A stretch of DNA of 64,000 bases from Allacma fusca (lineage: Eukaryota > Arthropoda > Collembola > Symphypleona > Sminthuridae): NCBI GenBank assembly GCA_947179485.1, contig OX359250.1:45791450-45855449 (forward strand), written 5' to 3'. The position numbers and the translations under genes were made by a program. Of the stretch, positions 19,601-64,000 are shown one piece after another (position 1 is the first letter of the stretch; each line of letters begins with the position of its first letter). The notes under the pieces were generated by a model. The model was not told the DNA's origin, did no database searches, and saw only the letters and a program-made list of their open reading frames with translations.

Positions 19601-19687
19601 CTTCAATTATTTACATGTAATTCATGTTTTCCAAGGATCCAGGGAAATATTTAATATTTTAGCATTTGTTTTACTATACTATGAGAT

Positions 19688-19721
<34 letters not shown>

Positions 19722-25700: not shown

Positions 25701-28700
25701 AATTCGCATCTTTTTGATTCCTTTCAGGTATTTCGTTCGAACCCATATTTGAGTTCCATTCCAGAAAATTCAAAGTTGGGAACTCCTGTTCTGATGGTCA
25801 CAGCCGATGATGCAGATGTGGAGAAAACTCTTCGTTATACACTCAGGCCAGAAAAGGATGACATTGACAGAACCCGATTTCCTCTGAAAATTGATGTGGA
25901 GACAGGAACAATTGAAGTTGCTGCTAAAATAGATAGAGAACGCCGACAATGGTTAAATTTTACAGTCATTGCTGAAGACTCTGCCAGCTCCCCGCAGAAA
26001 CGTACCGGCTCAACTCATGTTTACGTGAATGTTATTGACGAAAATGATAACAGCCCGGTAGGCTTTCAATAACCTATTATATAACCTTTTCCAAATTAAT
26101 CTTACTTTTTCGAAATTTTCCAGACATAGAATTCCTTAGTTATTAGAATAGGGTTCCAGTTTTATTCCTGATTTGATTAAAGGAGGGGTGTCGAATTACA
26201 AATAAATATTAAAAAAATAATGTCGTTTAATTGCCGATCGCTATTATTAAGTAAAAAAAGGATTATAGATATAAAACGTTTAAAGAATCCCTTCAGATGT
26301 TCAGTAATCTCTCCATTCTTAGCAGAAAATGAACGCCTGTTTCTAATGTTTATTTCCTTTTGTGAAGATCTTTATTGACGGAATTACAAACTTCACTGTA
26401 AAAGAAAATGCGGCTGTCGGCACAATCGTGGCAAAGATTGAGGCGCAGGACAAAGATTCTGGTCAGTATGGGAAAGTTACTTACTTACTGGACCGAAAGT
26501 CATCCGGAGGGAAGTTTGTGGTTGATCCCGAAACTGGCCACATCCGAGTAGCTGAACCCTTGGATCGTGAAGAAGTTTCCTCATATTCCCTAGTTGTCCA
26601 AGCTTGGGATAATTATAGATTTGGTTATGCGGCAGGGGAAAGTCGAAACGCCTTTAAACAAATCGTGGTGGACGTGGCGGATATAAACGACGAAGTTCCT
26701 GTATTTGAGCCTGTAGAGCCCAATTCATGTGCCTCCGTCACAGAATTTCACGAAGACATCATTACCACTGTAAGAGCCAAAGATAACGATGACCCGGACT
26801 CCCCTAATGGCTGGGTATCATTCAAAATCAAGAAAGGGAACGAATTAGGGCTGTTTAAACTGGAGCAAGGGAAAAATACTGCTAAAATCCTACCTGCCAG
26901 ATCCCTCAAAGGTTTCTATGGGAACTACACTCTGGTCATTGAGGCCGCAGATGGCGGACAACCACCCAAAATGGCATCCATGGATGTAAAAATTTGTGTT
27001 TCAGGTGGGTTACCGTTATTTTTGACAGTTTTGTGTTCACTGGAAATCTCATTTCATATGTACGGCAATCAGTAATCAACTATAATTTAATTCCAGATTT
27101 TAATGATAATCAACCCGTCTTCATCAACCCTGCCCAAAACTTTACAATTCGAGTAGCTGAGGTTAGGATTTTAAATTTTGCAATAACATGTAATGATATC
27201 CAAATAGAATGCTCAATAGCCCATAGAAATCATTACATAATTATTGTTACTATGCTTACTGTACAGAACGCTACAATAGGAACATCGATTATTCAAGTGA
27301 GAGCAATCGACAATGATATAGGACTGAATGGCGTGGTTCGGTATCGCCTAAGGCAAGATATTTCTGGACATTGGGAAACCTTCGAAATCAATTCCATCAC
27401 TGGCGTCATTTCGTTAGCAAAGCTGCTGGACCGCGAGCAGCAGAAATTATACCATGTAATTATAATTTAACCTTGACTACTTGTAGGGATAATTAATAAT
27501 TTAGCAATACTTAGCATGGATCCAATACAGATGCTGGTATTGCCCGGAATTGTTTCCATGTATTTAAAACAGTAAAATATGAATACTGTTTTGTTTTTAT
27601 TTACTTTAGATTCGAATCGAGGCTCACGATCTAGGGGTTCCGACTCCCTTATCCACAGACTTGGATCTTACCATTTTGGTGCGGAATGTAGACGATTTCA
27701 AACCTCAATTTGTGGTTGAGAATTTCGAGGCTAATTTTACGGGTGAGTTGTAAAATGCAGTAAATTATGAAATGTGAAACAAAATATATAGTTTTGAATC
27801 CAGGTTATCTTTTACGTGGATTTTACTCGATTTAAAATGGGTAGTTACGCCGAGAATAGACAAGCAAAAAGTAGTATGACAAAGGAGGCAATTTTAATTG
27901 GTGTTACAGAGACCAGACCCCCAGTGGGTAAGTTCTGCGGAGGAATTTTTTGGCTATGCCAAACACCCGTTAAGAAATCCGTGTAAATCGGTTTTTTTGG
28001 TTAAGCGGGAATTTCTCGGGAACCAGTTGTCCGATTTTCACAATGTTTCATGTCATGTGTAGAGAATGGAGTCCTGTAGTGCAGCATTGCAGCGTTTTGG
28101 AAAATTTGACCAAAATTAGAAAAAATTTGTATTTTTCTCCTATGATTTCGCCCTGTTGTTGCGCCTTTGAGGTACAAAATGCTGAAAAATACAATTTTTT
28201 TCTGATTTTGGTCTAATTTTTAAAAACGCTGCAATGCTGCACTAGAGCACTCCATTCTCTACGCATGACACGAAACATTGTGAAAATCGGACAACTGGTT
28301 CGCGAGAAATGTCGGTTTTACCAAAAAACACGAATTTCACCGATTTCTCAACGGTTGTTTGGTCTTGCAAAAAAATCGTCCGCGGAACTTACCCGCTGGG
28401 GGTCTGGTTTCTGTTACACCAATTAAAACTGCCTCCTTTGTTAAATAGCTTTTCACTTGTCTATTCTCCGCGTAACTACCCAATCCTTTTCGATCGCATA
28501 TGTTTTTTATGCACATACCTGTGTAGTTATGCACATGATTTTTTGATACTGGTTGAAATGATATAACGCGATCATATGAAAATTACTTAATATTCATTTT
28601 TGACAAATTATAAACGCAGAGAATATAACACCCAGTCGGGAAAAGCTGGAATTACCCGCAACTATTGACCGTGACGATGAGGACGAAGAGGAAAGGAAAT

Positions 28701-43573: not shown

Positions 43574-46315
43574 TTACTTTGGGCGGGTTACGAAGCGGCC
43601 AGTTGCAATTGAGTAATACAACAGGTCGCTCGCGTTCGCCTGTTTAAGGAGACTTAGGTCTAGAGTACATGCCTTAAGATATATATTTCTAATGATGCAG
43701 AAGGCAGGGCACGTCGCCAAGAAGTGAAAGGCGTCCTCATCCTCTATGCCACAATATGTGCACAGGGGGCAGGATGCCTTCCCAATTCTATGGAGATGTT
43801 TTTGAAATCTGCCATGACCGGAAATAACCTCCGTGAGCCACTTGATGTGGACTCGTGAGAATTTGGTCACCGATTTGTTCCCATATAGTTGAGTATTTAT
43901 CAGTGATCTGGGATGAGCACCAATTTTCAGGTTTTGCCATCTCTCAGTGTGCAAGGCACGCAGTTTGCTGCGCACGATATATTTCACCACTGAGGTAGCA
44001 ATTGGAAGTTTAGTTGGAATCCTTGTTTCTAAGGATTCTTTTGAGTAAGCTGCTTTCGCAAGTTTATCTGCCTCCTCGTTTCCTTCAAAACCTTGATGAC
44101 TTGGTATCCAGTGGAGCCGAACAGTGTTATCCTTTGATAAACTGCTCAGCGCCATGTTACAATCAAGTACAAGTTTTGAGGATGTATAGGAGCTGTTTAA
44201 GGCAAGTAAGGAGCTCTGACTATCACTGTAAAATGTGATAGTTTCATTGCTGTAGTTAGAGTTAATAAGAAATTTGGCTGCGCACATTATTGCGTGTATT
44301 TCACATTGAAATACAGTTGCATGTTCATCAAGAGGGTTGGATTCGCAGTAAATAGCCTTGCACGAACTCCCATCTCTCTTGATGATGTAGAAGCCACTGC
44401 CTGCTAACTGTTTGGATTTGGAGCCATCAGTATAACAGATGAGGCCGATGTTGTCTAGTGACAGGTCTTTGGTCCACTCAGACTTTTCGCCAACAACAAT
44501 TCCAATATTGTTATTTGCAAGTTGTGACGGGATGATACTATCGCTAGGTCTCAGTAGGATAGTTTCCATCGTCACCCATAGATTCCACAGTCTAACATGA
44601 CTGCGTTTAACATGTGCCATAGATTCGCCGAGCCAGTGGTTTCTGGCCCTTAATCTGTGCATTGTTCGGACAACTATTCCCTGTAGATGTAAGTCTAGCG
44701 GAATAATGCCTAAAATTGCTTCTAATGTCGCAGTTGGGGTGCTTTTGCAGGCACCTGTGATACTGAGACAAGCTTGCCTTTGCACACTGTTTATTTTTGC
44801 AAAGGTGTATTTTGCATTATAACCAGGATGCCAGACGACAACTGCGTATTCCAGAATGGGGCGCACGATTGTCGTGTACATCCAGTTTACAATTTTTGGG
44901 TTAATACCCCATTTCTTTCCGACCAAGCGTTTGATAGTGAGTAATGATGAATTAGCTTTATTCGCAATGGAGAGACAATGCACTCTCCATGTAAGGTGGC
45001 TATCTAACATCACTCCTAGGTATCTTATGCTTGGGAGGATGGCGATTTGGTTCCCACGGTAGGAAAGTGTACTTATCCTCATACGTGTGTTCCTGGTAAA
45101 AATGACTGCGCCCGTTTTTTCCGGGTTTAGATTGAGGCCCGTGCGTGTGCACCATCCATCGATGATGGCTAGGCCCTTAAGAGTTCTATCCGCACATGTG
45201 CTGAAGTCTTTTCCTGCCTGAGCAAGGACTACGTCATCCGCAAATCCTTGTGATAAGACAGATGGCATCCTGGTTTGGAGCTGTTGGAGTAGCTCATCCA
45301 TAACGAGATTCCAAATTAGAGGAGACAAAACACCACCCTGCGTGGTTCCCCTCTCAACTCTTCTCTCGCTGTGAGAGCTTCTCAATGTGGAGCAAGCTAA
45401 TCGGGACTGCAGCATGTGATTTATCCATCGACAAATTACAGGGTCAATTCCAGATCTGCTCAGTGCCGATTCCATCGCTGCAAATAACACATTATTAAAT
45501 GCTCCATCGATGTCCGCAAATATTGCTATGACAATTTCCTTATTTCCCAGGGCTTTTTCCACGTAGCATATAAGTCGATGAAGTGCTGCCTCTGTGGAGG
45601 TTCCCCGTAAATAAGCAAATTGTTTGTTACCCCTAAGGGTTGCTTGTAGTTGATGTGTTCTTATGTGACAATCAACTAGTCTTTCAAGTGTTATCAATAG
45701 AAACGAGGAAAGTGAAATGGGTCTCCAAGCAGCCGCACTTTCGTAACAGCCTTTTCCAGGTTTCGGAATGAATATCACTCTTGCTTTGCGCCATTCTAGT
45801 GGCACGTAGCCTAGTGTCAAACAACCTTTGTAGATTGTGCACAGGTGCGTACTGAGAACATCCAGACCCTTTAGTAAAACTATTGGGGAGATGTTGTCTG
45901 TACCAGCAGCTTTATAGGGACCGAAGGTACTGACTGCCCACTTTATTTTGGATGGATTAACTATTTTGTCTAGCTCCGTCACTTCCTTTAGGTTATGATC
46001 CCAAGTTATGGAGTTTAACGAGGGGCCACATGGAAAGTGGTGAGCTAGTAGTTCATCTAGAACCTGGCAATCATCCATTGTGTTCATACCATTTGGGAGT
46101 TTTATGCGGCTAGGAGTTTTCCGATTCTCCGAACTTAATACTTTTTTGAGTCTAGCCGCTACTGGTAAGCAGGTTATGCTCTCACAGTAGGTCTGCCAAG
46201 ACTTGCGTTTCTCGTTTCTTAAAACTTTTTTTATATTTATTTCGGCATCTCTTGTAGTTCTCCCAGGCTGATGGATCACGCTCATTGGGGTTGCCAGCCA
46301 GTCTGAGGAGACCAC
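43574..46315 (-). CDS. LINE A ORF2: reverse transcriptase, RNase H and Cys/His finger
   Basis: A 913-codon open frame; the nominal start is a GTG and the real frame enters from upstream through a frameshift. RT motifs in order: GTDNISPIVL, WRKARVIFIPKPGKG, RPISLSSFLLITLERL, IFADIDGAFNNV (catalytic Asp), TTQGGVLSPLIWNLVMDELL, QGFADDVVLAQ (catalytic FADD) and IRYLGVMLD. RNase H follows with CYTDGSKSKQLAGSG, a middle Glu in FQCEIHAIMCA, YSDSQSSLLAL and HWIPSHQGFEGNEEADKLA. The C-terminus has a CPLCTYCG...H...C finger. It makes cDNA by target-primed reverse transcription. An RNase H after the RT points to the I/R1/LOA group. Confidence 0.9.
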   Translation of the reverse strand: MVSSDWLATPMSVIHQPGRTTRDAEINIKKVLRNEKRKSWQTYCESITCLPVAARLKKVLSSENRKTPSRIKLPNGMNTMDDCQVLDELLAHHFPCGPSLNSITWDHNLKEVTELDKIVNPSKIKWAVSTFGPYKAAGTDNISPIVLLKGLDVLSTHLCTIYKGCLTLGYVPLEWRKARVIFIPKPGKGCYESAAAWRPISLSSFLLITLERLVDCHIRTHQLQATLRGNKQFAYLRGTSTEAALHRLICYVEKALGNKEIVIAIFADIDGAFNNVLFAAMESALSRSGIDPVICRWINHMLQSRLACSTLRSSHSERRVERGTTQGGVLSPLIWNLVMDELLQQLQTRMPSVLSQGFADDVVLAQAGKDFSTCADRTLKGLAIIDGWCTRTGLNLNPEKTGAVIFTRNTRMRISTLSYRGNQIAILPSIRYLGVMLDSHLTWRVHCLSIANKANSSLLTIKRLVGKKWGINPKIVNWMYTTIVRPILEYAVVVWHPGYNAKYTFAKINSVQRQACLSITGACKSTPTATLEAILGIIPLDLHLQGIVVRTMHRLRARNHWLGESMAHVKRSHVRLWNLWVTMETILLRPSDSIIPSQLANNNIGIVVGEKSEWTKDLSLDNIGLICYTDGSKSKQLAGSGFYIIKRDGSSCKAIYCESNPLDEHATVFQCEIHAIMCAAKFLINSNYSNETITFYSDSQSSLLALNSSYTSSKLVLDCNMALSSLSKDNTVRLHWIPSHQGFEGNEEADKLAKAAYSKESLETRIPTKLPIATSVVKYIVRSKLRALHTERWQNLKIGAHPRSLINTQLYGNKSVTKFSRVHIKWLTEVISGHGRFQKHLHRIGKASCPLCTYCGIEDEDAFHFLATCPAFCIIRNIYLKACTLDLSLLKQANASDLLYYSIATGRFVTRPK

Positions 46316-46622
46316 GAGATCTTTTACGGAGTGCAGACAGTTCGTTGGTCCACCAAGGAACAGTTTTCTGCCTCCATGAAATTGTTTTTAGTGGACATGC
46401 TTTGTCAAAGCTGTTTTGAATTGATGATGTTATCAACACAGCCTGACTCTCAAGTTTACCAACATTGGGAGGTGCCTCCATGTGTACACCATTTAGATCT
46501 TCACATAAGCAATGGACGTATTTTTCCCAGTCAGCCTTCCTTATATTACGAGCTTTTATTGGGTTTGGTTTCATGGCGGACACCAAAAAATCCAATGTAC
46601 AAGTGATCAGACATGGATTCAA
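46182..46622 (-). pseudogene. LINE A ORF2: linker between endonuclease and RT (frameshifted)
   Basis: Continues ORF2 in a third frame: a DWEKYVH block, then TVPWWTNELSALRKRSR, a pattern typical of the EN-RT linker in I/R1-type LINEs. Frame changes on either side coincide with a six-A run (46585-46590) and a seven-T run (46226-46232) on the plus strand. Confidence 0.8.
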
Positions 46623-47355
46623 TATCCAGAACGTCCCACTGTCTAATTAGACTATGTGCCCAGCTATTTGTTATTGTAACATCTAAGACCTCCTGTCTAT
46701 TAGCAACTATGAATGTGGGTTTATATCCCACATTGCAGGTCTGAAGATGGTTTCTTAGTAAGAATTCAAGTAGCTGCTGGCCTCTTGAGTTTATATTGGA
46801 GCTACCCCAAGCTGTGTGGTGAGCATTTGCATCTGCACCCATAACAAGCGGGATATTTAGCTCATTACAGTATTCAACAAGATTTATGATAGATCTGCTG
46901 GGAGTCGTTTGTGTGTCACCAGGGCAATAGGCTGATGCAAACACAATCGTTCCGCTTCTCCATTCGGTAGAAATAGCCATCAAATCTCTATCATTGAATT
47001 GAGAGAGAGGAGTAGCCATTATGTTCTTGGTTGTTACAATGCAAGCCCTGGGGGCTTCGTTTATTGTTCCAACAAATAAATTGTCTCTTTTACCAAGGCC
47101 AGAGATTTTATTTTTGACCAAATATGGTTCTTGAATGAGGAAAATAAGAGAATGAGCATGGCGCACTTTACTGTTATTGTGCAAATGCATTGCATTCTTT
47201 TGTTGCATCAATAGACTGTCGCGCCAATTCATAAGTGAAGTTGACGCATCACGACAATGATGCAAGTTAATTTGGGTCGTGTAAACATGGGGAGTATCTA
47301 TAATAGGTACTCCCATGTTACGTGACCCAGGGACAAGCCTAAAGGATACAGACAT
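46546..47355 (-). CDS. LINE A ORF2: APE-type endonuclease domain
   Basis: About 269 codons from an ATG. Apurinic-endonuclease-like features are FLIQEPYL (catalytic Glu), FASAYCPGD, VMGADANAHHTAWGSSNIN (catalytic D-x-N) and the terminal SMSDHLYI (SDH). The domain nicks target DNA before reverse transcription. The frame slips just after the SDH motif. Confidence 0.88.
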   Translation of the reverse strand: MSVSFRLVPGSRNMGVPIIDTPHVYTTQINLHHCRDASTSLMNWRDSLLMQQKNAMHLHNNSKVRHAHSLIFLIQEPYLVKNKISGLGKRDNLFVGTINEAPRACIVTTKNIMATPLSQFNDRDLMAISTEWRSGTIVFASAYCPGDTQTTPSRSIINLVEYCNELNIPLVMGADANAHHTAWGSSNINSRGQQLLEFLLRNHLQTCNVGYKPTFIVANRQEVLDVTITNSWAHSLIRQWDVLDIESMSDHLYIGFFGVRHETKPNKSS

Positions 47356-47392
47356 TTACACAGTAAGGAGGGAAGAGGATAATGCATAGCAT

Positions 47393-48110
47393 TCACACAG
47401 GATCAGGATTGGCGCGCTCAGACTTCTTCAATCTTGCCTCAAAGCGTAGTGTGCCCACGCTGTAGAAAAGCGTGAAGTCTTTTGCGCGCAGATACTCCAC
47501 TGAGGCAGGATCAATACCAATGATCCTACTGCATCCAAGCAGTGGTGCCCCAGGAAGAGATTTGGCAGACCAGAACTCACTCCATCTGTTAGTGGTAAGC
47601 CCCGGATTCTGTATCTTGAGTCTTTTCAGGAACTCAGGAAACGATTGCACAGGGCCATTTACACGAACATAGTAAGTGGCCTGGTTTTCGGGTTTCCCCG
47701 TCGGGACCTCGGATGGTTTCCAGGCCGTGAAGGTATGAGTTCCATATGGACTCACCCACTTCACATTTGGACACCTGCTCGAGATCCAATCTTGAGTGTG
47801 AGAGTTGAAGCAATCAACTCTAATTCGACCAGATGAAGTAAGTGTGGGCTCCTTCATTTGGAGAATTTGCCCCTGACTTGCTTCATCGTTGTACAGCTTG
47901 TACAACTCCAAGGTGAAGTGTTGGCACGCCTTGGCACTGATCTTTCTCCCTGCATCATCACCAGCCATGGTGATGATGGTGGAGTGTTCCAGTAGGGGCG
48001 ATTCTTCCACTTCACTGGTTGTAGTGGCTATAACCTTCGGAGGTGCATTTTCAGTGCCAGCTCCTGAAGGATTAGCAGAGGGGGGTGGGGTAGGAAGATC
48101 TTTCCGACCC
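47393..48110 (-). CDS. LINE A ORF1 (nucleic-acid-binding protein, 5'-truncated)
   Basis: Open from the element's first bases to a stop at 47393; the first in-frame Met is near 47962. The C-terminal half has KRLKIQNPGLTTNRW and a following LGCSRIIGIDPASVEYLRA pattern that resembles the DUF4780-type domain of arthropod retroelement ORF1 proteins (from memory, moderate certainty). No CCHC knuckle is seen. Confidence 0.65.
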
Positions 48111-49774: not shown

Positions 49775-51442
49775 GTATGTATTTTTTTAGGGGTTCTCTC
49801 TCACCTAGTTGGAGAGAGATACTGCTCGGGCCATCAGGTGGGCCCATTGCAGATTGCCCTGTACACTTTACTTTGGGCGGGTTACGAAGCGGCCAGTTGC
49901 AATTGAGTAATACAACAGGTCGCTCGCGTTCGCCTGTTTAAGGAGACTTAGGTCTAGAGTACATGCCTTAAGATATATATTTCTAATGATGCAGAAGGCA
50001 GGGCACGTCGCCAAGAAGTGAAAGGCGTCCTCATCCTCTATGCCACAATATGTGCACAGGGGGCAGGATGCCTTCCCAATTCTATGGAGATGTTTTTGAA
50101 ATCTGCCATGACCGGAAATAACCTCCGTGAGCCACTTGATGTGGACTCGTGAGAATTTGGTCACCGATTTGTTCCCATATAGTTGAGTATTTATCAGTGA
50201 TCTGGGATGAGCACCAATTTTCAGGTTTTGCCATCTCTCAGTGTGCAAGGCACGCAGTTTGCTGCGCACGATATATTTCACCACTGAGGTAGCAATTGGA
50301 AGTTTAGTTGGAATCCTTGTTTCTAAGGATTCTTTTGAGTAAGCTCCTTTCGCAAGTTTATCTGCCTCCTCGTTTCCTTCAAAACCTTGATGACTTGGTA
50401 TCCAGTGGAGCCCAACAGTGTTATCCTTTGATAAACTGCTCAGCGCCATGTTACAATCAAGTACAAGTTTTGAGGATGTATAGGAGCTGTTTAAGGCAAG
50501 TAAGGAGCTCTGACTATCACTGTAAAATGTGATAGTTTCATTGCTGTAGTTAGAGTTAATAAGAAATTTGGCTGCGCACATTATTGCGTGTATTTCACAT
50601 TGAAATACAGTTGCATGTTCATCAAGAGGGTTGGATTCGCAGTAAATAGCCTTGCACGAACTCCCATCTCTCTTGATGATGTAGAAGCCACTGCCTGCTA
50701 ACTGTTTGGATTTGGAGCCATCAGTATAACAGATGAGGCCGATGTTGTCTAGTGACAGGTCTTTGGTCCACTCAGACTTTTCGCCAACAACAATTCCAAT
50801 ATTGTTATTTGCAAGTTGTGACGGGATGATACTATCGCTAGGTCTCAGTAGGATAGTTTCCATCGTCACCCATAGATTCCACAGTCTAACATGACTGCGT
50901 TTAACATGTGCCATAGATTCGCCGAGCCAGTGGTTTCTGGCCCTTAATCTGTGCATTGTTCGGACAACTATTCCCTGTAGATGTAAGTCTAGCGGAATAA
51001 TGCCTAAAATTGCTTCTAATGTCGCAGTTGGGGTGCTTTTGCAGGCACCTGTGATACTGAGACAAGCTTGCCTTTGCACACTGTTTATTTTTGCAAAGGT
51101 GTATTTTGCATTATAACCAGGATGCCAGACGACAACTGCGTATTCCAGAATGGGGCGCACGATTGTCGTGTACATCCAGTTTACAATTTTTGGGTTAATA
51201 CCCCATTTCTTTCCGACCAAGCGTTTGATAGTGAGTAATGATGAATTAGCTTTATTCGCAATGGAGAGACAATGCACTCTCCATGTAAGGTGACTATCTA
51301 ACATCACTCCTAGGTATCTTATGCTTGGGAGGATGGCGATTTGGTTCCCACGGTAGGAAAGTGTACTTATCCTCATACGTGTGTTCCTGGTAAAAATGAC
51401 TGCGCCCGTTTTTTCCGGGTTTAGATTGAGGCCCGTGCGTAT
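49775..51442 (-). mobile_element. LINE insertion B: 5'-truncated copy of the LINE A family
   Basis: The sequence matches LINE A from its 3' end up to about 45143, with only three substitutions noticed by eye in ~1.65 kb plus a shorter 3' tail. It ends abruptly at 51440 inside the RT region: classic 5' truncation of target-primed reverse transcription. It interrupts the host LINE's endonuclease. Confidence 0.9.
49868..51376 (-). pseudogene. LINE B: C-terminal RT, RNase H and finger (truncated ORF2)
   Basis: 502 open codons equal to the last 502 of LINE A ORF2, with three residue differences (E/Q, A/G and R/G type changes) in and near the RNase H domain. The catalytic RT half is missing, so it is not functional on its own. 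Confidence 0.9.
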
Positions 51443-53069: not shown

Positions 53070-53820
53070 CTAATTCTTGTCAATCGGCAATTCCTCTTCT
53101 GTGGGTAGTAGGCAGAGTCGATGGATCGGACGTCTGTAGATGCCTTCGGCGGTCTTCATAGTTACCGTCCGGATTAATTTCTTGGGGTCACTTGGGTTGT
53201 GGTGTAGTTGGAGGATCCTTCCCATCTTCCATTTCTGAGGTGTGTTGTCCTCGATTATTACCACCACGTCTCCTTCCTTAACGTTCTTATGAATTTTCTC
53301 CCATTTGGTCCGTTTCTGTAGGTGATGCAAGTACTCAGACAACCATCTGACCCAAAAGTGTTGCGTCATCTGTTGTATATGCTGCCAACGGTCCAGGGTG
53401 TTCACTTTAAGCTCCTTTAGGTTCGGTTCGGGTATCGCCATCAATAGAGCTTCCATTATGAAGTGTCCTAGGGTAAGTGCTGAGGTTTTCTCAAGGTCAT
53501 CAGAGGTCCTCCAAAGTGGACCAGAGGTGAGGCATGCCTCTCTCTGGACTAGAAACGTTGAATACTCCTCGAATACGAGCGGGGTGGGACCGAGGACTCT
53601 CTTCAAGTGGAATTTGCAGGATTTTACGGTCGCCTACCAAAGCCCTCCCATATGAGTTGCGGAGGGTGGGTTGAAACTCCATTAGAAGCCACGTTCTGCT
53701 AGCTTGAGAGTAAGGGTATCGTTGTGGTGTTGGGAACGGAGTTCGCATCTGTTCCAACAATGATAGGTTTCGTATAGTCAATCCCAATAAGTACTATCTC
53801 AGTACTCATTGCAGATTTTA
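53070..53820 (-). pseudogene. BEL/Pao retrotransposon fragment: integrase C-terminal region
   Basis: The main frame (53070-53606) has QREACLTSGPL, TLGHFIMEALL, DRWQHIQQMTQHFWVRW, GDVVVIIEDNTPQKWKMGR and YRRPIHRLCLLP: the DUF5641-type C-terminus of BEL/Pao integrases. Upstream, past a stop, the same frame has FNPPSATHMGGLW, the end of the integrase core. Further upstream a different frame reads EIVLIGIDY, possibly BEL protease sequence joined by deletion. It is broken and abuts Ty3/Gypsy sequence at about 53822. Confidence 0.82.
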
Positions 53821-53823
53821 TAT

Positions 53824-54860
53824 CTATAAAGCTCTTTCCTGTTCGTCAGTCCATTTGAACTTAGAGTTCTTGTGTAGCAGCCTAAACATAGGTTCAAACC
53901 TGTCAGCAAACCTATTCACGAAATCTGCGTAGAAGTTACACATTCCATGAAACTTCTGTATGTGTTTTCGTGAGGTTGGTCTCTCTAAATGAACTATCGC
54001 CTGAACCTTGCTGCTGTCCATCCTAATTCCAATATGAGAAATGATTGTCCGAAAAATAAAACCTCTTTCCTGCCAAATTAGCATTTGTCCCTATTACAAG
54101 TTAAATTATCGTTTCTTAATTTGGTCAACATTTTCCTAATGTGATCCAAATGTTCGCCAAAAGAGTAAGAGAAAATTAAAACGTCATCTTGAAAGACCTG
54201 CAAAAGCTTTCTGATAAACTCTAAAAATTTTATTCATCAGTCTTTGTGCAGTTTTGCTTGCGTTTTTCAATCCGAACGGCATGACCAACCATTCCAATAA
54301 ATCGCTGTGTGAGATAAATGCAGTATTCTTAATACTATTTTCCTCCATCTCAATTTGCCAGTAGAAACATTCCATGTTGCATTTTGCGAAATATTTGGCT
54401 AAAGTAAGTGGGCGTAATATCCATGTTATGTTCGCCATCGGGAAGCTATCTGTGACCGTGACTTTGTTGACTTCACGGTAATCGAGTGCCATCCTTTTTG
54501 TCCCATTGTTCTTATCCACTAAAACAATTCCAGCTGCAAATTCTGAGTTTGATTCTCGAACCATATTATTATTGGTATTACCAAGAACTATTGGTACTGA
54601 AGTCCTTTGCATGACATTACATTTTTGTTTGAATGCTCGACCTTGAATCTTTAACTCACAGAAAATTTCTCCTGTTGACTTCACTTTATGTGAGGCTGTC
54701 TCTACGTACTTTGAACATGACTTAACCAAATCAGTCCACTTTAGCGTTTCTACAGTTTCTTGGTTAATAAAACTTTCCGTTCCTCCAGTGTCAAGAAGAC
54801 TGTATCTTACACTCAGCTATGTAGATGAATACAATTGGTAAGAAGCCAATGTGAATAGTT
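53824..54860 (-). pseudogene. Ty3/Gypsy retrotransposon: protease and reverse transcriptase (broken)
   Basis: From 54830 downward, LLDTGGTESFINQE is an aspartic-protease active site (D-T-G). 54184-54729 continues through the protease into RT with AAGIVLVDKNNGTKRMALDY, YWQIEMEENSIKNTAF and LVMPFGLKNAS. A frame break removes the catalytic YxDD area as a continuous frame. 53824-54084 resumes with GIRMDSSKVQAI and KFHGMCNFYADFVNRFAD, then FKWTDEQERAL, the RT C-terminus and the start of RNase H. No integrase of this family follows; the sequence switches to BEL/Pao. Confidence 0.87.
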
Positions 54861-54887
54861 AGTACAGGACACAGGACCGAATTGGCT

Positions 54888-55832
54888 TCACCCTCGACCT
54901 GTATTTTCAGTTTTTTGAGTATGACCCTTTCTCGGTTCTACCCCCGATTGGGAAAAGTCCCCTCTGTCTCCTTTATTCAAGGAATATTCCTGTCCTTTGT
55001 TCATTATCTTTATTATCGGCAGCACTGCCTTTTTATCTGGGCAAAATCGGGCAACATGCCCTGCTTTGTCGCATAAAAACACTAGTCACTGCCTTTTGCA
55101 TTTGACTTGTTCCCTGTGTTTGCATTAGATTTGCCCCTGAATGTCCCTCTGGAGTTATGACCGCCTCGCCCGCTCCCATTTGATTTGACAGAGCCACTGT
55201 CATTATCATTTGCCTTGATCTTGTCAATTTCCTATTTTGAATTGGACGTGGAATCTGTCTTGGACTTGTCAATTTCTCCGTTACCTTCTGCTTTCTGGTA
55301 TACAGTAATGTTTTTCGAGCTATGCGTTGCTCTTAAGAGTCGTATTGTTTTAAAAAGGCATCTTTGAAGTCATCCCAGTCCGAGAAGCAATCCTGCTTCC
55401 ATTCAAACCAAGACTCCTGATCTCCCTTTAAAATTAATGCAACGACATCTATCCAGTGCTCCTCCACTATCCCTTTCATCTTAAAAAATCTCGCCACCTT
55501 TTTCAAGAAATTGGCTCCGGAAACTACTTGAGGATCAAATATACGATTTTTGTTTTTGAGATTTCCTCCCAGCACTATAGTCTGGGCTTTATCCTTAGCC
55601 CTGACTTTGGGGAAAGGAGCCTTGTAATGATCCAATAAATATTTTCGCTTATCTTGACCAATGCCCTTAATAGCGGAGTTTGCTTGTCATCGAACTTTGT
55701 TCCAGCGTAATCCTGTGGGTACACTCCTTCTGTGACTGCTTTTAGAGCTCTAGGATTTATTTCCATTTCCTTTACTAATTTCTCAAAATCCTCTGTACTC
55801 ATTGTGTCATTGTTTGACCCTGTGGAGCTCAT
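54888..55832 (-). pseudogene. Ty3/Gypsy gag, copy 1 (frameshifted)
   Basis: Starts with ATG at 55832 (MSSTGSNNDTMSTEDFEKL), then changes frame near 55620 to 55333-55635 (capsid-like, with KGDQESWFEWKQDCFSDW), then to 55033-55272. It ends with FLCDKAGHVARFCPDKK near 55082, a CCHC knuckle whose first Cys is lost at a stop. Gag is upstream of the protease and RT on the same strand. Confidence 0.82.
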
Positions 55833-55972
55833 TTTGCTATTTCTTTAAAACAAAACTGTTCCAGCTATCCAGCCTGAATGCAGTGTTGTTTAAATAATCT
55901 AAATATTTTTTCCAATGTCGAGTAAAAAAAGTGAATTAACTTGTTGAATTTGAGAAAAAAATCCTTGGCATA

Positions 55973-55990
55973 TCCTAGGCAGGATCGCCA
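55973..55990 (-). promoter_or_regulatory. Probable tRNA primer-binding site of the Gypsy element, copy 1
   Basis: On the minus strand TGGCGATCCTGCCTAGGA lies one base after a putative LTR ending in CACTACA. TGGCGA-type sites next to an LTR are common in Ty3/Gypsy elements. The second copy is at about 62006-62023. Confidence 0.5.
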
Positions 55991-55991
55991 C

Positions 55992-56998
55992 TGTAGTGTA
56001 TGTTACTTAATTATTTAATGCACTCTCAGTAGGGTTACGATATGCATTGAATGAATGAGCATAGTATTCTCAGCATTGACTTCTTTAGGTTAGTTTTTAT
56101 TCCTATTCAGAGGAGAGTCAATCACACACTGGTTTATACTTCGTAGTAGGAAAACTTCACTAAGTGATAAGGAAGTCTGTTTACATAATTTTACCTCAGT
56201 TCAATATATCTAATTAGAATATTTTACATTGTCACCTGATCATTTACATCTTACATTACATACCCAATGTAATTTATGCCTCTCATACATTATGACTTGT
56301 TCTCATCCTCTTCAGCACTCACCAGGGCGAGGTATATATTTTAAATTAGCACCACACTAAGGTGAAGACGAGAAAAATCCATAACGTGTCGCTTGATTGA
56401 TGACGAGGGAGAGTGCAAGTAGACTATTGTTCATCCCTCGCGCAGAGGGATACAAAAATGCCCATCTATGAACAAAACCACAAAACAAGATACTGGAACA
56501 TTTTAAGAAAATTACGAATTACTGCCACTCGGGTAAAATGTAATAAGCAAAATACTTAAATTCAGTGCCGTGCCATAATCTACGAACTAAAACGTTTTTA
56601 AGTTCTTTAAATCTTACATGAAATTTAAATAACCTCAACAGTCTGCGATCTTGTCCCTTATGCAACAACACTCCCAGTGGTCGTACTAAATCTATAAACC
56701 ATAAAACAACCATCTATCAAATACATTCAAGTGTACACTTATTTATTACCCCCTTGTGGCTCCCCTGTTAGGTACGATCATAATTACTGAAAAGGGTCGC
56801 GGGATCTTATTGTTGACTGAAACCACAAAATCGTATGATACAAGTCAACGATATAACCAAATCCATTTGTGTCTCATTTTCTCACGCTCAACCAATGTAA
56901 ATGCATCTTTTGATCAGATTAGTTTCGTAGCAAATTGCAAAATTGGATTATTTCTCTCCGTAAAAAATAATTTGTTGTAATTATAAGCAACTACTACA
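55992..56998 (-). repeat. Probable Gypsy LTR, copy 1 (~1.0 kb)
   Basis: Bounded by TGTAGT on one side and its complement ACTACA on the other, with the primer-binding site adjoining and gag next. No second LTR is found downstream, in keeping with the broken mosaic structure. The far boundary is inference. This also covers a >300-base stretch without genes. Confidence 0.45.
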
Positions 56999-57510
56999 CA
57001 GGAGCAAAAAAACACGTTACATTCGTCTCATATGTTGCTTCCAAAGTTATTGTATCCCTTTATAATAATATTCCTTCAGAAAGTTATTTTTTGCTCTCAA
57101 GGGTGCTGAAATAATTACAAATTGGTTAAGTTTACTACCCCCGTCTGTAGCAGATTTTATTTAATAGTAATCAATTTCTTATGTTACTTTGCATTTGCTA
57201 CCATCGGTAAATATATGTACGGGTCAAAGTATGTATGTTTATGAAATAAAGTCATGGTTTTGGATCATGTAGCCTCGTATTTTAAATACTTCTGCAAACC
57301 GTGTTTTATTACGCCGATCCTGAACAATATTTAATTATGACTTGTTTAATCGTCAAGAAAAAAGAACTAACAATAAAATTGTTTTTTTGTTTTCAAACTG
57401 TTTACGAGTCTTGGTATTGTACACATTGTGTTGTATTCAATTTTATGAAATGAGAATCTTCAAGCCAATTGTAATAATTCGTTTAAACAATGTGTTTATT
57501 TGCTATTTGC

Positions 57511-57562
<52 letters not shown>

Positions 57563-57716
57563 TATTCAAGGATTCTGTTCGGGCGGTGCCCATATCATCC
57601 AAAAGTAGCATGAATTTTAAAACAACCTCTGACTTTCCCAGTGTTTCTTCACTTGATTCGTTGTAAGAAAAACGAGTATTTTTATCGCGTAAGCAAATTT
57701 AAAAAGCTGAGAAAAT
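56999..57716 (+). other. 5' flank of knottin gene copy 1
   Basis: AT-rich, with an (ATT)n tract at 57510-57563. A possible acceptor (CTGACTTTCCCAG, ending 57643) would give a 5' UTR segment leading to the ATG at 57717. I cannot place a core promoter. Confidence 0.4.
57510..57563. repeat. (ATT)n microsatellite, copy 1
   Basis: About 18 ATT units; read in frame it gives a poly-Leu ORF that I reject. The matching tract in copy 2 (63303-63338) is shorter and carries one ATG. Confidence 0.95.
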
Positions 57717-58158
57717 ATGCTAAAGAGGTATTTTAAGCAAACAATCTGCATTTCAGTAATTTTCTGAAACAAATTTTAAACATTATCATTTAAAACCATA
57801 GTACATTGTAAACCTATAACATTTGTTACGTAGTATTGTTTATAAAGGTATAATGTGTTAATAAAGTGTGGATTTTCCTGTTAAAATTCTAGATTGATAT
57901 TTGTATTATTTGCGGTTACACTTATGGTTGGCAGTACCGTGGAATCACCTCCAACACCAGGGCCACCTATTGACGGTGTAATAAACAAAAACTATTCTGA
58001 ATGTATAGCCATGTATGCTTGTCTAAGTACGACAATATTATTTGAATAAAAATGTTTGATTTCAGGGACCATGCAAACCTGCAAGTGAAAATTGCTTTTC
58101 CAGCTGGGAATGCTGCAGTAGATTATGTGATATATATTCTCAACATTGCGTTGGATAA
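57717..58158 (+). CDS. Putative secreted knottin (inhibitor cystine knot) peptide, copy 1, three exons
   Basis: Exons 57717-57727, 57893-57977 and 58066-58158, with GT-AG introns of 165 and 88 bases (donors GAG|GTATTT and GGT|GTAATA; acceptors TTCTAG and TTTCAG). The phases close to 62 codons plus TAA. Residues 1-18 form a typical signal peptide: a basic start, then a Leu/Val/Phe core made by joining exons 1 and 2. A short Pro-rich linker follows. Residues 35-60 carry six cysteines at 35, 42, 48, 49, 53 and 60, that is C-x6-C-x5-CC-x3-C-x6-C, the inhibitor-cystine-knot framework of small secreted channel modulators, inhibitors and antimicrobial or toxin-like peptides. AATAAA lies at 58314-58319. 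The target is unknown; toxin-like activity is only one possibility. The longer frame at 58052-58318 is a shadow. Confidence 0.75.
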
Positions 58159-58524
58159 TGAAGTAGTTAAAGGATCACGAAACGTCATCCCGATTTTTCA
58201 ACCTCCAATTGAATTGGTGTATCAAATCATTTTTAATGTTTATGATATAACGTGTAATATCTATATATTAATTCTGCTGCAAAATGTGCAGATAAAAACA
58301 ATTGAAAACATTAAATAAATACTATATAGGAAACAAACAAACGGGTTAGTTCATCTCCAGTGCAAGTAGTTTTCACATTATTAATCGTTGCTTGGACTCT
58401 GTAATACTAGTAACTATTAATTATTTTATCCATATTGTAGTCATGTTGCTGTATTAACTTTTCTACATTGAACATAAATTTCATACTTTCATTGGAGGAA
58501 TACTCTACTGAGGAGCTATAGCAT

Positions 58525-58630
58525 ACTCGAGTAGATACTCAAATTTCGAGTGGATACTCGAGTTTCGAGTGGATGCTCGAGTTTCGAGTAGATACTCGAG
58601 TTTTGAGTAGGTAATCGAGTTTTGAGTATG
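58525..58630. repeat. ~22-bp tandem repeat of GAGTTTCGAGTRGATACTC type
   Basis: Four to five imperfect units containing ACTCGAGTTTCGAGT, then diverging into GAGTAC-rich sequence to about 58830. Similar GAGTAC words return at 59580-59780. Confidence 0.75.
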
Positions 58631-58907
58631 AGTACGGATCGAATACGGTATCAACTTAGGATTGGGACTTGTATTCATCGTTTGAATATCCGTTTTCGTA
58701 CTCGGACTTGAGTATATTTCTAACGAGTATCAGTGTGAGTACGATTACGTTTAAAGTACTTAAACCAAAATACGAGTTCGGGACATAAATTCAAAAGTAC
58801 TTGAACTGGTACTTTCATTTATACTTGACACTCGAGTAGTTTCCTCCAGTACAAAGTCCATATCCATATTTTCTTAATTACAAAAAAGGTGCGAAAAGGA
58901 ATTCAAA

Positions 58908-59499
58908 ATGACTACAAGTTGTATAAACCGTTGCACCTACAGCGGCACTGAAGAGTCAACACATGATTACCTCTGGGATAACAGAAACTTGGCATACTTA
59001 GAAGCTAACTATCACCAGTTGATGTTAACTGTGCAAAATCAGCTCGGAAGTCAGCACCTTCTGAAGCGACAAGAATCAAAAATACATATCCAATATCAAA
59101 TATTTCCTTACACCCCCGGGATTGATTCACAATATCTTCTTATTCATATTGACATTCGTCAAAACCGAATACTGGCAAGACTCACTGGGACCTAGTTCAG
59201 AATTGCTCGATACAGTTGACAAATACCCGAATATGATCAATCCCCAACTGTGCCAAGCATGCAACACACAAGACATAGACTCACTAAAACACACTACTTC
59301 GTGGTCCAATGCAGGGTATATAAACCATAACCGATTTAATGTACATGCATCATATACAGCATATTTGAACCCAGAAACAAGAGAGGAAATGTGTAATTTA
59401 ATACAAATGTTACACAGCTTTCTCAGAAAGAGAATTATTTGTAGACTAGATAGATTGCATGAATTTTCATTTCAAGTTCCAGTTAAAAATTCTTTTTAG
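58908..59499 (+). pseudogene. Unrecognised ORF pair, possibly a transposase remnant
   Basis: Two overlapping frames (58908-59195, 95 codons; 59122-59499, 125 codons) have ordinary amino-acid composition. The second includes CQACNTQDIDSLKH, reminiscent of a zinc-binding cluster. I do not recognise the family. The location between GAGTAC-rich flanks suggests a degenerate mobile-element gene, with a frameshift near 59150. Confidence 0.3.
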
Positions 59500-60066
59500 C
59501 TGAATATACTACTTGTTTTCTACGTTAATCTCTCCTTAATAAAAAATAAAGTTCACAAAACAATTTTTTTCGGCATAGTTGATACGCGAGTGCATTTCGA
59601 GTACGAGTTCAAGTACGGGTCGGCCGGTATAAACGTTTCATACTCTGTAAAACGTTCTGTAAAAAAATTAAGAAACAACTCCGTTCTGCGAGTACTGTAA
59701 ATGATTTTTTACTCGTACTTGAAGACGCCAGTCCAGGTCAAGCGGGAATTTGGCCCGACAATTCGAGTACGGTATGGATAACTACTCGACCCATGAGGAA
59801 CCATAAAACTGACCAATGTTTTGACCAAAATTTCAACATTTATTATAGCCAAGAAGGAATCAAACAAAAAAATGGGTACTGGTCCTAGTATGGGTCGGGT
59901 GCTTACTGATATTAGAAATAACAATATTTATAGTTTTGAGAAAAGTAGATACAGGAAATTGTTATTTCCTTACTACAATACAATTTGTAGAAGATTTGCA
60001 AAACTTGACGCAACCCCAAGTTTATAGCTAATTGCAATACGGGTTCGAACCGATATGGTGACCCTG

Positions 60067-60714
60067 AATTAAATGTTTAAAATGCTGACATCGAAATTTT
60101 TTAAAAACTGTAAATTTTAGCAGTTTTTGACATGTCAATTTTTGTCGACTAGAAGGAGTCACGCCTCTTCCCTAAAGAAACATTGAAGAAAATATGAAAG
60201 AATATATATTTTTTTAAATTTAAATAAAGCCCGACTGGTGTTCAGATTTTCAAAAACACAGATTTGGGGCACATTGAGACTACCCACAAATCCCAATAAC
60301 TTCTGAATGACGTACTTCATTTAGATCAGCGATACATCATTTTAAAAGTATTTATATACTCTGTAAGCGCTAAAACAATGATATGCGAAATTTTAAAATC
60401 CCAGACAAGTTTTAAAAAATTTACACAGTTTTGGCAATAATTTCATAATCTAATTTCTCCAAGAAGGAATCATCTGAGGCACAGCCTTCCCTCTAAGAAA
60501 AAACTGTTTATCTATGAACTTGCTACATAAATTTTAAAAAACAGCTTTAAATCACTTTTACCTGGTCAGAAAATACCAAATGCCGAACTTGAACGGAAGA
60601 CTTATTTCATTTTATATCAGGCGTCTCTCAAAGAAACTCATTTTCCAAGATCCGAATTTTTATTTAAAAAAAATTTAATGCAAGTATACTGAATACGCTG
60701 ATTAGGGCTCCTCA
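60067..60714. other. No gene seen
   Basis: AT-rich sequence with no domain-like frame, repeat or RNA gene that I can identify. Confidence 0.5.
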
Positions 60715-60962
60715 CGACTTCAAGTAGTAATTGCAACTTACAATTACAATTCAAGTCAACTTCAATTTATTAAAAAAATAAAATTGTAAATTGAAGTCAA
60801 CTTGAAACAAAAGTTGAAACAAAATTTTTAGTTGAACATTCAGTTTCAACTTCAATTCAACTACCAAATAAAGCTTTTAATTTGAGAAGCATAATCAATT
60901 CAACTTCAACTTGCTGAAGTACAAATAATTGAAAATTCAAGTTGATTAATTAACAATTTTTG
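60715..60962. repeat. Dense CAACTT/AAGTTG motif array
   Basis: About fifteen copies of CAACTT, AAGTTG or TCAATTCAAC in both orientations follow AGGGCTCCTCACGA, which could be a degraded hAT-like end. The array stops exactly where copy 2 of the segmental repeat starts. Confidence 0.45.
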
Positions 60963-60965
60963 AAT

Positions 60966-61865
60966 CGGTTCTACCCCCGATTGGGAAAAGTCCCCTCTGT
61001 CTCCTTTATTCAAGGAACATTCCTGTCCTTTGTTCATTATCTTTATTATCGGCAGCACTGCCTTTTTATCTGGGCAAAATCGGGCAACATGCCCTGCTTT
61101 GTCGCATAAAAACACTAGTCACTGCCTTTTGCATTTGACTTGTTCCCTGTGTTTGCATTAGATTTGCCCCTGAATGTCCCTCTGGAGTTATGACCGCCTC
61201 GCCCGCTCCCATTTGATTTGACAGAGCCACTGTCATTATCATTTGCCTTGATCTTGTCAATTTCCTATTTTGAATTGGACGTGGAATCTGTCTTGGACTT
61301 GTCAATTTCTCCGTTACCTTCTGCTTTCTGGTATACAGTAATGTTTTTCGAGCTATGCGTTGCTCTTAAGAGTCGTATTTTTTTAAAAAGGCATCTTTGA
61401 AGTCATCCCAGTCCGAGAAGCAATCCTGCTTCCATTCAAACCAAGACTCCTGATCTCCCTTTAAAATTAATGCAACGACATCTATCCAGTGCTCCTCCAC
61501 TATCCCTTTCATCTTAAAAAATCTCTCCACCTTTTTCAAGAAATTGGCTCCGGAAACTACTTGAGGATCAAATATACGATTTTCGTTTTTGAGATTTCCT
61601 CCCAGCACTATAGTCTGGGCTTTATCCTTAGCCCTGACTTTGGGGAAAGGAGCCTTGTAATGATCCAATAAATATTTTCGCTTATCTTGACCAATGCCCT
61701 TAATAGAGGAGTTTGCTTGTCATCGAACTTTGTTCCAGCGTAATCCTGTGGGTACACTCCTTCTGTGACTGCTTTTAGAGCTCTAGGCTTTATTTCCATT
61801 TCCTTTACTAATTTCTCAAAATCCTCTGTACTCATTGTGTCATTGTTTGACCCTGTGGAGCTCAT
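60966..61865 (-). pseudogene. Ty3/Gypsy gag, copy 2 (3' end cut by duplication breakpoint)
   Basis: Same frames and breaks as copy 1: ATG at 61865, then 61366-61668, then 61066-61305. A few residue changes are seen (for example N/K and K/E types). It stops at the breakpoint before the protease, so no pol follows. Confidence 0.85.
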
Positions 61866-62024
61866 TTTGCTATTTCTTTAAAACAAAACTGTTCCAGCTA
61901 TCCAGCCTGAATGCAGTGTTGTTTAAATAATCTAAATATTTTTTCCAATGTCGAGTAAAAAAAGTGAATTAACTTGTTGAATTTGAGAAAAAAATCCTTG
62001 GCATATCCTAGGCAGGATCGCCAC

Positions 62025-62793
62025 TGTAGTGTATGTTACTTAATTATTTAATGCACTCTCAGTAGGGTTACGATATGCATTGAATGAATGAGCATAGTAT
62101 TCTCAGCATTGACTTCTTTAGGTTAGTTTTTATTCCTATTCAGAGGAGAGTCAATCACACACTGGTTTATACTTCGTAGTAGGAAAACTTCACTAAGTGA
62201 TAAGGAAGTCTGTTTACATAATTTTACCTCAGTTCAATATATCTAATTAGAATATTTTACATTGTCACCTGATCATTTACATCTTACATTACATACCCAA
62301 TGTAATTTATGCCTCTCATACATTATGACTTGTTCTCATCCTCTTCAGCACTCACCAGGGCGAGGTATATATTTTAAATTAGCACCACACTAAGGTGAAG
62401 ACGAGAAAAATCCATAACGTGTCGCTTGATTGATGACGAGGGAGAGTGCAAGTAGACTATTGTTCATCCCTCGCGCAGAGGGATACAAAAATGCCCATCT
62501 ATGAACAAAACCACAAAACAAGATACTGGAACATTTTAAGAAAATTACGAATTACTGCCACTCGGGTAAAATGTAATAAGCAAAATACTTAAATTCAGTG
62601 CCGTGCCATAATCTACGAACTAAAACGTTTTTAAGTTCTTTAAATCTTACATGAAATTTAAATAACCTCAACAGTCTGCGATCTTGTCCCTTATGCAACA
62701 ACACTCCCAGTGGTCGTACTAAAAGCAAATTGCAAAATTGGATTATTTCTCTCCGTAAAAAATAATTTGTTGTAATTATAAGCAACTACTACA
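62025..62793 (-). repeat. Probable Gypsy LTR, copy 2, with 238-bp internal deletion
   Basis: Same termini as copy 1 (TGTAGT to ACTACA). The deletion joins CGTACTAAA directly to AGCAAATTGC. Confidence 0.45.
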
Positions 62794-63302
62794 CAGGAGC
62801 AAAAAAACACGTTACATTCGTCTCATATGTTGCTTCCAAAGTTATTGTATCCCTTTATAATAATATTCCTTCAGAAAGTTATTTTTTGCTCTCAAGGGTG
62901 CTGAAATAATTACAAATTGGTTAAGTTTACTACCCCCGTCTGTAGCAGATTTTATTTAATAGTAATCAATTTCTTATGTTACTTTGCATTTGCTACCATC
63001 GGTAAATATATGTACGGGTCAAAGTATGTATGTTTATGAAATAAAGTCATGGTTTTGGATCATGTAGCCTCGTATTTTAAATACTTCTGCAAACCGTGTT
63101 TTATTACGCCGATCCTGAACAATATTTAATTATGACTTGTTTAATCGTCAAGAAAAAAGAACTAACAATAAAATTGTTTTTTTGTTTTCAAACTGTTTAC
63201 GAGTCTTGGTATTGTACACATTGTGTTGTATTCAGTTTTATGAAATGAGAATCTTCAAGCCAATTGTAATAATTCGTTTAAACAATGTGTTTATTTGCTA
63301 TT

Positions 63303-63338
63303 TGCTATTATTATTATTATTATTATTATTATGATTAT
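63303..63338. repeat. (ATT)n microsatellite, copy 2
   Basis: About 11-12 ATT units interrupted by ATG; shorter than in copy 1. Confidence 0.9.
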
Positions 63339-63493
63339 TTATTCAAGGATTCTGTTCGGGCGGTGCCCATATCATCCAAAAGTAGCATGAATTTTAAAAC
63401 AACCTCTGACTTTCCCAGTGTTTCTTCACTTGATTCGTTGTAAGAAAAACGAGTATTTTTATCGCGTAAGCAAATTTAAAAAGCTGAGAAAAT

Positions 63494-63935
63494 ATGCTAA
63501 AGAGGTATTTTAAGCAAACAATCTGCATTTCAGTAATTTTCTGAAACAAATTTTAAACATTATCATTTAAAACCATAGTACATTGTAAACCTATAACATT
63601 TGTTACGTAGTATTGTTTATAAAGGTATAATGTGTTAATAAAGTGTGGATTTTCCTGTTAAAATTCTAGATTGATATTTGTATTATTTGCGGTTACACTT
63701 ATGGTTGGCAGTACCGTGGAATCACCTCCAACACCAGGGCCACCTATTGACGGTGTAATAAACAAAAACTATTCTGAATGTATAGCCATGTATGCTTGTC
63801 TAAGTACGACAATATTATTTGAATAAAAATGTTTGATTTCAGGGACCATGCAAACCTGCAAGTGAAAATTGCTTTTCCAGCTGGGAATGCTGCAGTAGAT
63901 TATGTGATATATATTCTCAACATTGCGTTGGATAA
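63494..63935 (+). CDS. Putative secreted knottin peptide, copy 2, three exons
   Basis: Exons 63494-63504, 63670-63754 and 63843-63935. All splice sites, the signal peptide and the six-cysteine framework are the same as in copy 1. I see no nucleotide difference in exons or introns, so both copies predict the same 62-residue precursor. The upstream LTR-like segment carries a 238-base deletion absent from copy 1, and the ATT tract is shorter, so regulation could differ. The 3' end of the transcript is outside the window. Confidence 0.73.
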
Positions 63936-64000
63936 TGAAGTAGTTAAAGGATCACGAAACGTCATCCCGATTTTTCAACCTCCAATTGAATTGGTGTATC

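Follow-up and report, generated by a model that had tools for sequence, protein, structure and literature searches.

Gene structure at the locus

The window analysed here is a 64,000-nucleotide stretch of the genome of the springtail Allacma fusca (C9:45791450-45855449), whose contig corresponds very closely, though without proof of identity, to chromosome X2 in the chromosome list of PMC10427803 (in part). It contains a gene of three short coding exons (57717-58158, + strand) of 11, 85 and 93 nt, joined in phase 2 and then in phase 0. Both introns have GT-AG boundaries, the frame is open throughout and the predicted product is 62 residues long. The in-phase splicing put forward in a preliminary description of this DNA was recovered at the same coordinates, and paralogues agree on the exons, the splice sites and the signal region. 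The features are as follows.

57717..57727, + strand: exon 1, coding part, 11 nt, with the ATG in frame (M-L-K and two bases of the fourth codon)
57728..57892, + strand: intron 1, 165 nt, GT...TAG
57893..57977, + strand: exon 2, signal-peptide core and the Pro-rich linker SPPTPGPPIDG
57978..58065, + strand: intron 2, 88 nt, GT...CAG
58066..58158, + strand: exon 3, the entire six-cysteine knot domain, then V-G-stop
58310..58319, + strand: overlapping polyadenylation-signal-like hexamers ATTAAA and AATAAA (consensus match only), about 150 nt past the stop

Exon 3 by itself encodes the framework C-x6-C-x5-CC-x3-C-x6-C, with a TAA stop codon two residues past the last cysteine, as had been proposed. 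Intron 2 is placed just ahead of the first cysteine. The preliminary description also held this combination to be very unlikely by chance, and the counts agree: from composition, 2.6e-5 occurrences of the exact framework are expected per window, and a loose version of it appeared in none of 60 first-order Markov shuffles of the window.

The free choice of the tiny exon 1, which provides the ATG and creates a signal peptide across the first junction, is the weakest part of the preliminary model. Within the 700 nt upstream of exon 3, ten spliced starts have a splice quality at least equal to that of the model, and the single signal-peptide-like start among them is the one originally chosen, with a basic N-terminus followed by a hydrophobic core (Kyte-Doolittle mean 3.03). 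When 400 control stretches of the window were drawn at random, partly overlapping, 72 offered some signal-like start and one was equally hydrophobic. The splice donors of the gene are weak; the yardstick for splice sites was a set of four introns, backed by homology or frame, of the cadherin gene in the same window, and a donor similar to those of the peptide gene (CAT/GTAATT) occurs in a homology-supported intron of that gene. The latter is a multi-exon cadherin-23 / PCDH15-like gene at 15654-30522 (+). A scan of the window against Rfam gave no match at gathering scores.

A second copy in a tandem duplication

A second copy of the gene, identical to the first and missed in the preliminary description, is located at 63494-63935 (+), within a tandem duplication that runs past the end of the window.

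54932..60964, no strand: tandem duplication unit, copy 1, 6,033 bp, containing gene copy 1
60965..64000, no strand: tandem duplication, copy 2, extending beyond the window end and without the 238 bp of 56691-56928
63494..63504, + strand: gene copy 2, exon 1
63670..63754, + strand: gene copy 2, exon 2
63843..63935, + strand: gene copy 2, exon 3 (the exon-3 match is seen again at 63849)

Comparison of the two units shows 6 differing positions out of 1,759 in the block 54932-56690, and two substitutions plus a single 18-bp microsatellite gap in the block 56929-58223. Copy 1 of the duplication alone contains the 238 bp of 56691-56928, which show no obvious target-site duplication. Across the whole genome, full-identity matches to the gene are limited to the two window copies. 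Judged by its sequence, the tandem duplicate is recent. The second copy may instead represent one haplotype placed twice in the assembly, which would leave the gene itself untouched, because paralogues elsewhere share its structure. Gene copies 1 and 2 being identical, the tandem pair tells nothing about selection.

LTR-element remains occupy 53070-55844 (-), including a DUF5641 domain, a reverse transcriptase and a zinc-knuckle-like gag ORF, and the tandem duplication starts within this gag-like ORF (break at 54931/60965). The non-LTR retrotransposon at 43574-48010 (-) encodes endonuclease, reverse transcriptase and RNase H domains, and a second, partial non-LTR copy at 49868-51376 (-) carries an ORF that closely repeats the C-terminal part of the first element, which points to recent activity. 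Springtails were among the few named hits of a reverse transcriptase search.

A multigene family within the genome

The hidden gene of the preliminary description does not stand alone in the genome. DNA searches of the assembly (392,743,791 bases, 91 contigs) gave 22 matches with the whole gene, 20 with exon 3 alone and 25 with exon 2 alone, and a search with exon 3 of a distant member added 8 further loci. At 17 of the 20 exon-3 matches, an exon-2 match lies on the same strand at a distance of 75-131 nt upstream, the two exons having been searched for independently. Eight exon-2 matches are unaccompanied by an exon-3 match; a six-cysteine exon behind an AG is present at five of these, the knot exon is broken at L013, and none was found at L014 and L067.

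In all, a six-cysteine knot exon is found at at least 33 loci and encodes 25 distinct peptides. Under a pattern that permitted loops of 5-8, 3-9, 0, 2-6 and 4-12 residues, the 33 knot exons comprise 29 with the spacing 6-5-0-3-6, three with 6-5-0-3-4 and one with 6-5-0-3-8; these loci were collected by similarity, which biases them toward conserved spacing and linker. An AG precedes the knot exon at 32 of the 33.

The family forms clusters on contigs C1, C8, C9 and C12, with a single locus on C5. In the C9 array (45.01-45.09 Mb) the gene is repeated about every 13-23 kb. This array consists of six nearly identical members (L009-L012, L007 and L008), the two at its far end having no ATG in the start exon. 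A second subfamily has the same cysteine spacing and no SPPTPGPP in the DNA fetched; it comprises L038-L042 and L046 (C12:43.19-43.40 Mb) together with L043 and L044 (C1:73.0 Mb). Three loci at C1:1.83-1.85 Mb (L070, L072 and L073) possess the linker and are distinguished by a last loop of 4 residues, an acidic tail after the last cysteine and a net charge of about -7 to -8.

Conservation of exons and of cysteine codons

These paralogues within the same genome provide the strongest support for the gene model. The 11-nt exon 1 with its in-frame ATG is present in 8 of the 13 members compared (the window gene, L003, L004, L005 and L009-L012) and absent from the other five (L006, L007, L008, L013 and L014), and intron 1 measures 148-282 nt in the other members for which a donor was found. 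A GT lies immediately 3' of the exon-2 match at 18 of the 19 loci examined. Intron 2 has its donor GT in 12 of 12 members and its acceptor AG in 11, and 11 of the 12 retain all six cysteines, so that homologues with conserved cysteines, whose absence would have counted against the preliminary description, do exist as paralogues. Two members that are already without the start exon show further damage, L006 having no acceptor and L013 no knot frame; on this sequence evidence the family includes decaying copies.

Mean pairwise identity is 0.76 in exon 2 and 0.77 in exon 3, against 0.62 in both introns and 0.59 in the downstream flank. For cysteine codons pN is 0 and pS 0.60 (18 synonymous differences, 15 pairs), while the corresponding pN and pS values are 0.30 and 0.41 for loop codons, 0.23 and 0.32 for the signal region and 0.04 and 0.21 for the linker; all these identity and codon figures derive from six distinct members, two of them damaged, and are pairwise sums that are not independent of one another. 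As far as sequence can tell, this divergence of codons, exons and introns has the pattern of a translated, secreted, disulfide-rich peptide family. It is thus highly improbable that the locus holds no working gene, with chance splice signals or a pseudogene in its place: some members are damaged and the donors are weak, but the cysteine codons vary only synonymously, the exons are conserved over the introns, exon 1 is itself conserved, exons 2 and 3 recur together at 17 of 20 places and both window copies are intact and identical. That the locus is a three-exon gene with a secreted product is, on predictions from its sequence, close to certain.

The constant proline-rich linker

The Pro-rich linker noted at the outset proved to be a feature of much of the family. 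The octapeptide SPPTPGPP is exact in 18 of the 20 loci found through exon 3 alone (L034 having been inspected directly), the exceptions being L033 and L036. It is likewise exact in 19 of the 19 exon-2 loci examined out of 25 matches, loci that were found by their exon-2 likeness; the other six are additional copies within the same array or tandem pair. The count of 18 of 20 is the less biased of the two. At the DNA level the linker exists in 14 distinct versions, whose 91 pairs together show 421 differences at third codon positions; the script sought the exact octapeptide, so that the absence of any difference at codon positions 1 and 2 is forced and forms no separate result. Among the 33 knot loci, 23 have SPPTPGPP upstream, and the other ten, mostly in the C12 cluster at 43.2-43.4 Mb, are without the linker in the DNA fetched.

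The residue ahead of the octapeptide is small (G or A) in most members, which fits signal cleavage at that point. It is P in L063 and E in the window gene, in which cleavage may therefore lie elsewhere. T-P-G-P is a favoured acceptor of mucin-type GalNAc transferases. It seems conceivable, if well short of probable, that the peptide is bipartite: the signal would be cut just before the octapeptide, and the mature form would combine an invariant N-terminal SPPTPGPP tail with a freely diversifying six-cysteine knot. The tail would then act as a shared handle, for example through an O-glycosylated threonine or as a poly-proline ligand of one shared partner, and the knot would provide variable target binding.

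Relationship to known cystine-knot peptides

The preliminary description assigned the product to the secreted peptides of the inhibitor-cystine-knot (ICK) type, and this part of its reading is sustained both by the paralogues and by matches to solved structures. The cysteine order C-C-CC-C-C with short loops is found at 33 loci, the precursor carries a signal peptide by the measure of its hydrophobic core, and the knot resembles solved ICK peptides. In a single-sequence search (phmmer), exon 3 scores best among solved chains against 6px7_A, named 'Venom polypeptide' (E 0.0012); a six-member profile matches this chain more weakly than the single sequence does (E 0.03). With a 14-member profile, maurocalcine (1c6w_A) ranks first among solved chains at E 0.0017, followed by 6px7_A at 0.023, and lower matches include kappa-conotoxin PVIIA, imperatoxin A and omega-atracotoxins as well as two LDL-receptor chains. 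Nine of the 12 chains reached by this profile at E<=1 bear what we take to be the names of ICK toxins. These sequence resemblances make an ICK fold very probable for the predicted peptide.

The matched letters of 6px7_A are those of U-Asilidin1-Dg12, which is called ICK in a table of PMC6266666 (in part). This peptide and U-Asilidin1-Dg10, both from the venom of the assassin fly Dolopus genitalis (PMC6266666, in part), have the same 6-5-0-3-6 loops as the springtail peptide. Dg12 is identical to the springtail peptide at 12 of 28 positions, six of them cysteines, and its similarity outside the cysteines was attained by 2 of 20,000 shuffles with the cysteines fixed, Dg12 having been picked as the best chain. 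The asilidins come from fly venom, whereas the springtail peptide has no known venom use, and with 30 residues a tree of common descent would not be reliable.

Springtails also possess Alo knottins, which share with the present family a precursor of 61-62 residues with a signal peptide, a six-cysteine knottin and several genes per species (PMC10051947, in part). However, their spacing, given there as C-X6-C-X7-9-CC-X3-C-X10-C, differs from that of the present family, of whose 33 loci 29 have 5 residues in loop 2 and 6 in the last loop. In the accessible part of that source, Alo is absent from Sminthurus viridis, the sole globular springtail included, and Allacma is not mentioned. Two further likenesses are by description only. 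The whitefly knottins knot-1 to knot-4 form a small arthropod multigene family of 59-65 residues (PMC4974540, in part), and honeybee OCLP1, a 74-residue brain peptide, is likewise short, secreted and conotoxin-like and comes from an arthropod that is not a parasite (PMC3737499, in part).

A Pfam scan of 14 members returned no model at its cut-off. PF02950 (Conotoxin) scored 10.9 bits on exon 3 of the window gene against a cut-off of 25.1, and the near misses were L031 with PF08087, Toxin_18 of the conotoxin O-superfamily (23.3 of 24.3 bits), L035 with PF11703, UPF0506 (21.9 of 23.2), and L030 with PF08099, scorpion calcine (17.6 of 25). Among about 5.8 billion proteins, the 62-residue product has no relative sharing three 5-residue words, the minimum of that search; viral contigs gave 24 pattern matches, none of which was confirmed, and an alignment-based search for loci in such contigs yielded no sufficiently conserved stretch. 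A literature search whose reach left out most subscription journals returned no description of this family. Peptides of this fold class are ancient and widely distributed; the unusual feature of the present family is its constant tail.

Possible function

The opinion that this could be a host-interacting peptide of a parasitic arthropod is not supported, the source being a springtail, and springtails are soil-living detritivores (PMC10051947, in part). Taken as a whole, the locus would be a three-exon gene that looks functional and encodes a secreted ICK-type peptide with three disulfides; it would belong to a springtail family of at least 33 loci and serve most likely in defence, a statement for which we judge the balance to be even. 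For the defensive role itself, directed at microbes or at small enemies living in soil and litter and proposed by analogy, our confidence falls slightly short of even. In the secretory pathway the signal peptide would be cleaved off; the knot would form through C1-C4, C2-C5 and C3-C6 pairing of the six cysteines, and a stable peptide would be released outside the cell. Variable loops could then bind targets that differ between copies, and duplication with loop divergence could build up a defence repertoire.

Several considerations favour defence: the family is large and clustered, with some decaying copies and with variable loops; the springtail lives among soil microbes; and other arthropod knottins have such roles. 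Thus, springtail Alo knottins are predicted to be antifungal (PMC10051947, in part), the beetle knottin MaK is an antimicrobial peptide according to the title of PMC10743862 (in part), and whitefly knot-1 limits virus load (PMC4974540, in part). The net charge of the 25 distinct knot peptides is positive in 10 and negative in 11, with a median of -0.3 and a value of -1.2 for the window gene. Such near-neutral charge speaks against simple membrane breaking by a classical cationic antimicrobial peptide; as to antimicrobial activity in general, the family's net charge points in neither direction.

After defence, the other roles follow in the order internal modulator, enzyme inhibitor and venom-type peptide. 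The peptides could be endogenous toxin-like modulators of the animal's own ion channels or receptors, as has been proposed for OCLP1, a secreted toxin-like peptide (PMC3737499, in part), and near-neutral charge suits the binding of a channel or receptor as well as it suits defence. This role seems rather unlikely: at least 33 loci and 25 distinct knots, loops that diverge, tandem arrays and copies in decay resemble a family in turnover, unlike one conserved regulator.

ICK scaffolds also include protease and amylase inhibitors, and an inhibitor of this kind acting in the gut or haemolymph would owe differing targets to its loop variation; but no inhibitor family was matched in Pfam or among the solved structures, and we consider this role unlikely.

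Conservation of signal, linker and cysteines with variable loops is a pattern of venom peptide families too, and the nearest solved relatives by sequence are venom peptides. A venom-type or host-interacting effector is nevertheless quite improbable in a springtail, which is no parasite, and no venom apparatus is known from springtails. Dg12 itself has ordinary dipteran sequences as its nearest relatives in GenBank, consistent with the recruitment of non-toxic peptides (PMC6266666, in part), so that likeness to a venom peptide is weak evidence.

Implications for springtail biology

A first coding exon of 11 nt can be seen by eye and is hard for gene finders, and the gene that it opens is nonetheless one of at least 33 family loci. 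If the bipartite reading is true, globular springtails would have a lineage-specific repertoire of tagged knottins. The constant linker ahead of variable knots offers a handle for retrieving the family from other genomes. How springtails survive in microbe-rich soil is described as unclear in PMC10051947 (in part), where Alo knottins number only two to four in each of four springtail species. With so extensive a family of ICK-type peptides in a globular springtail, the question of survival in soil becomes testable.
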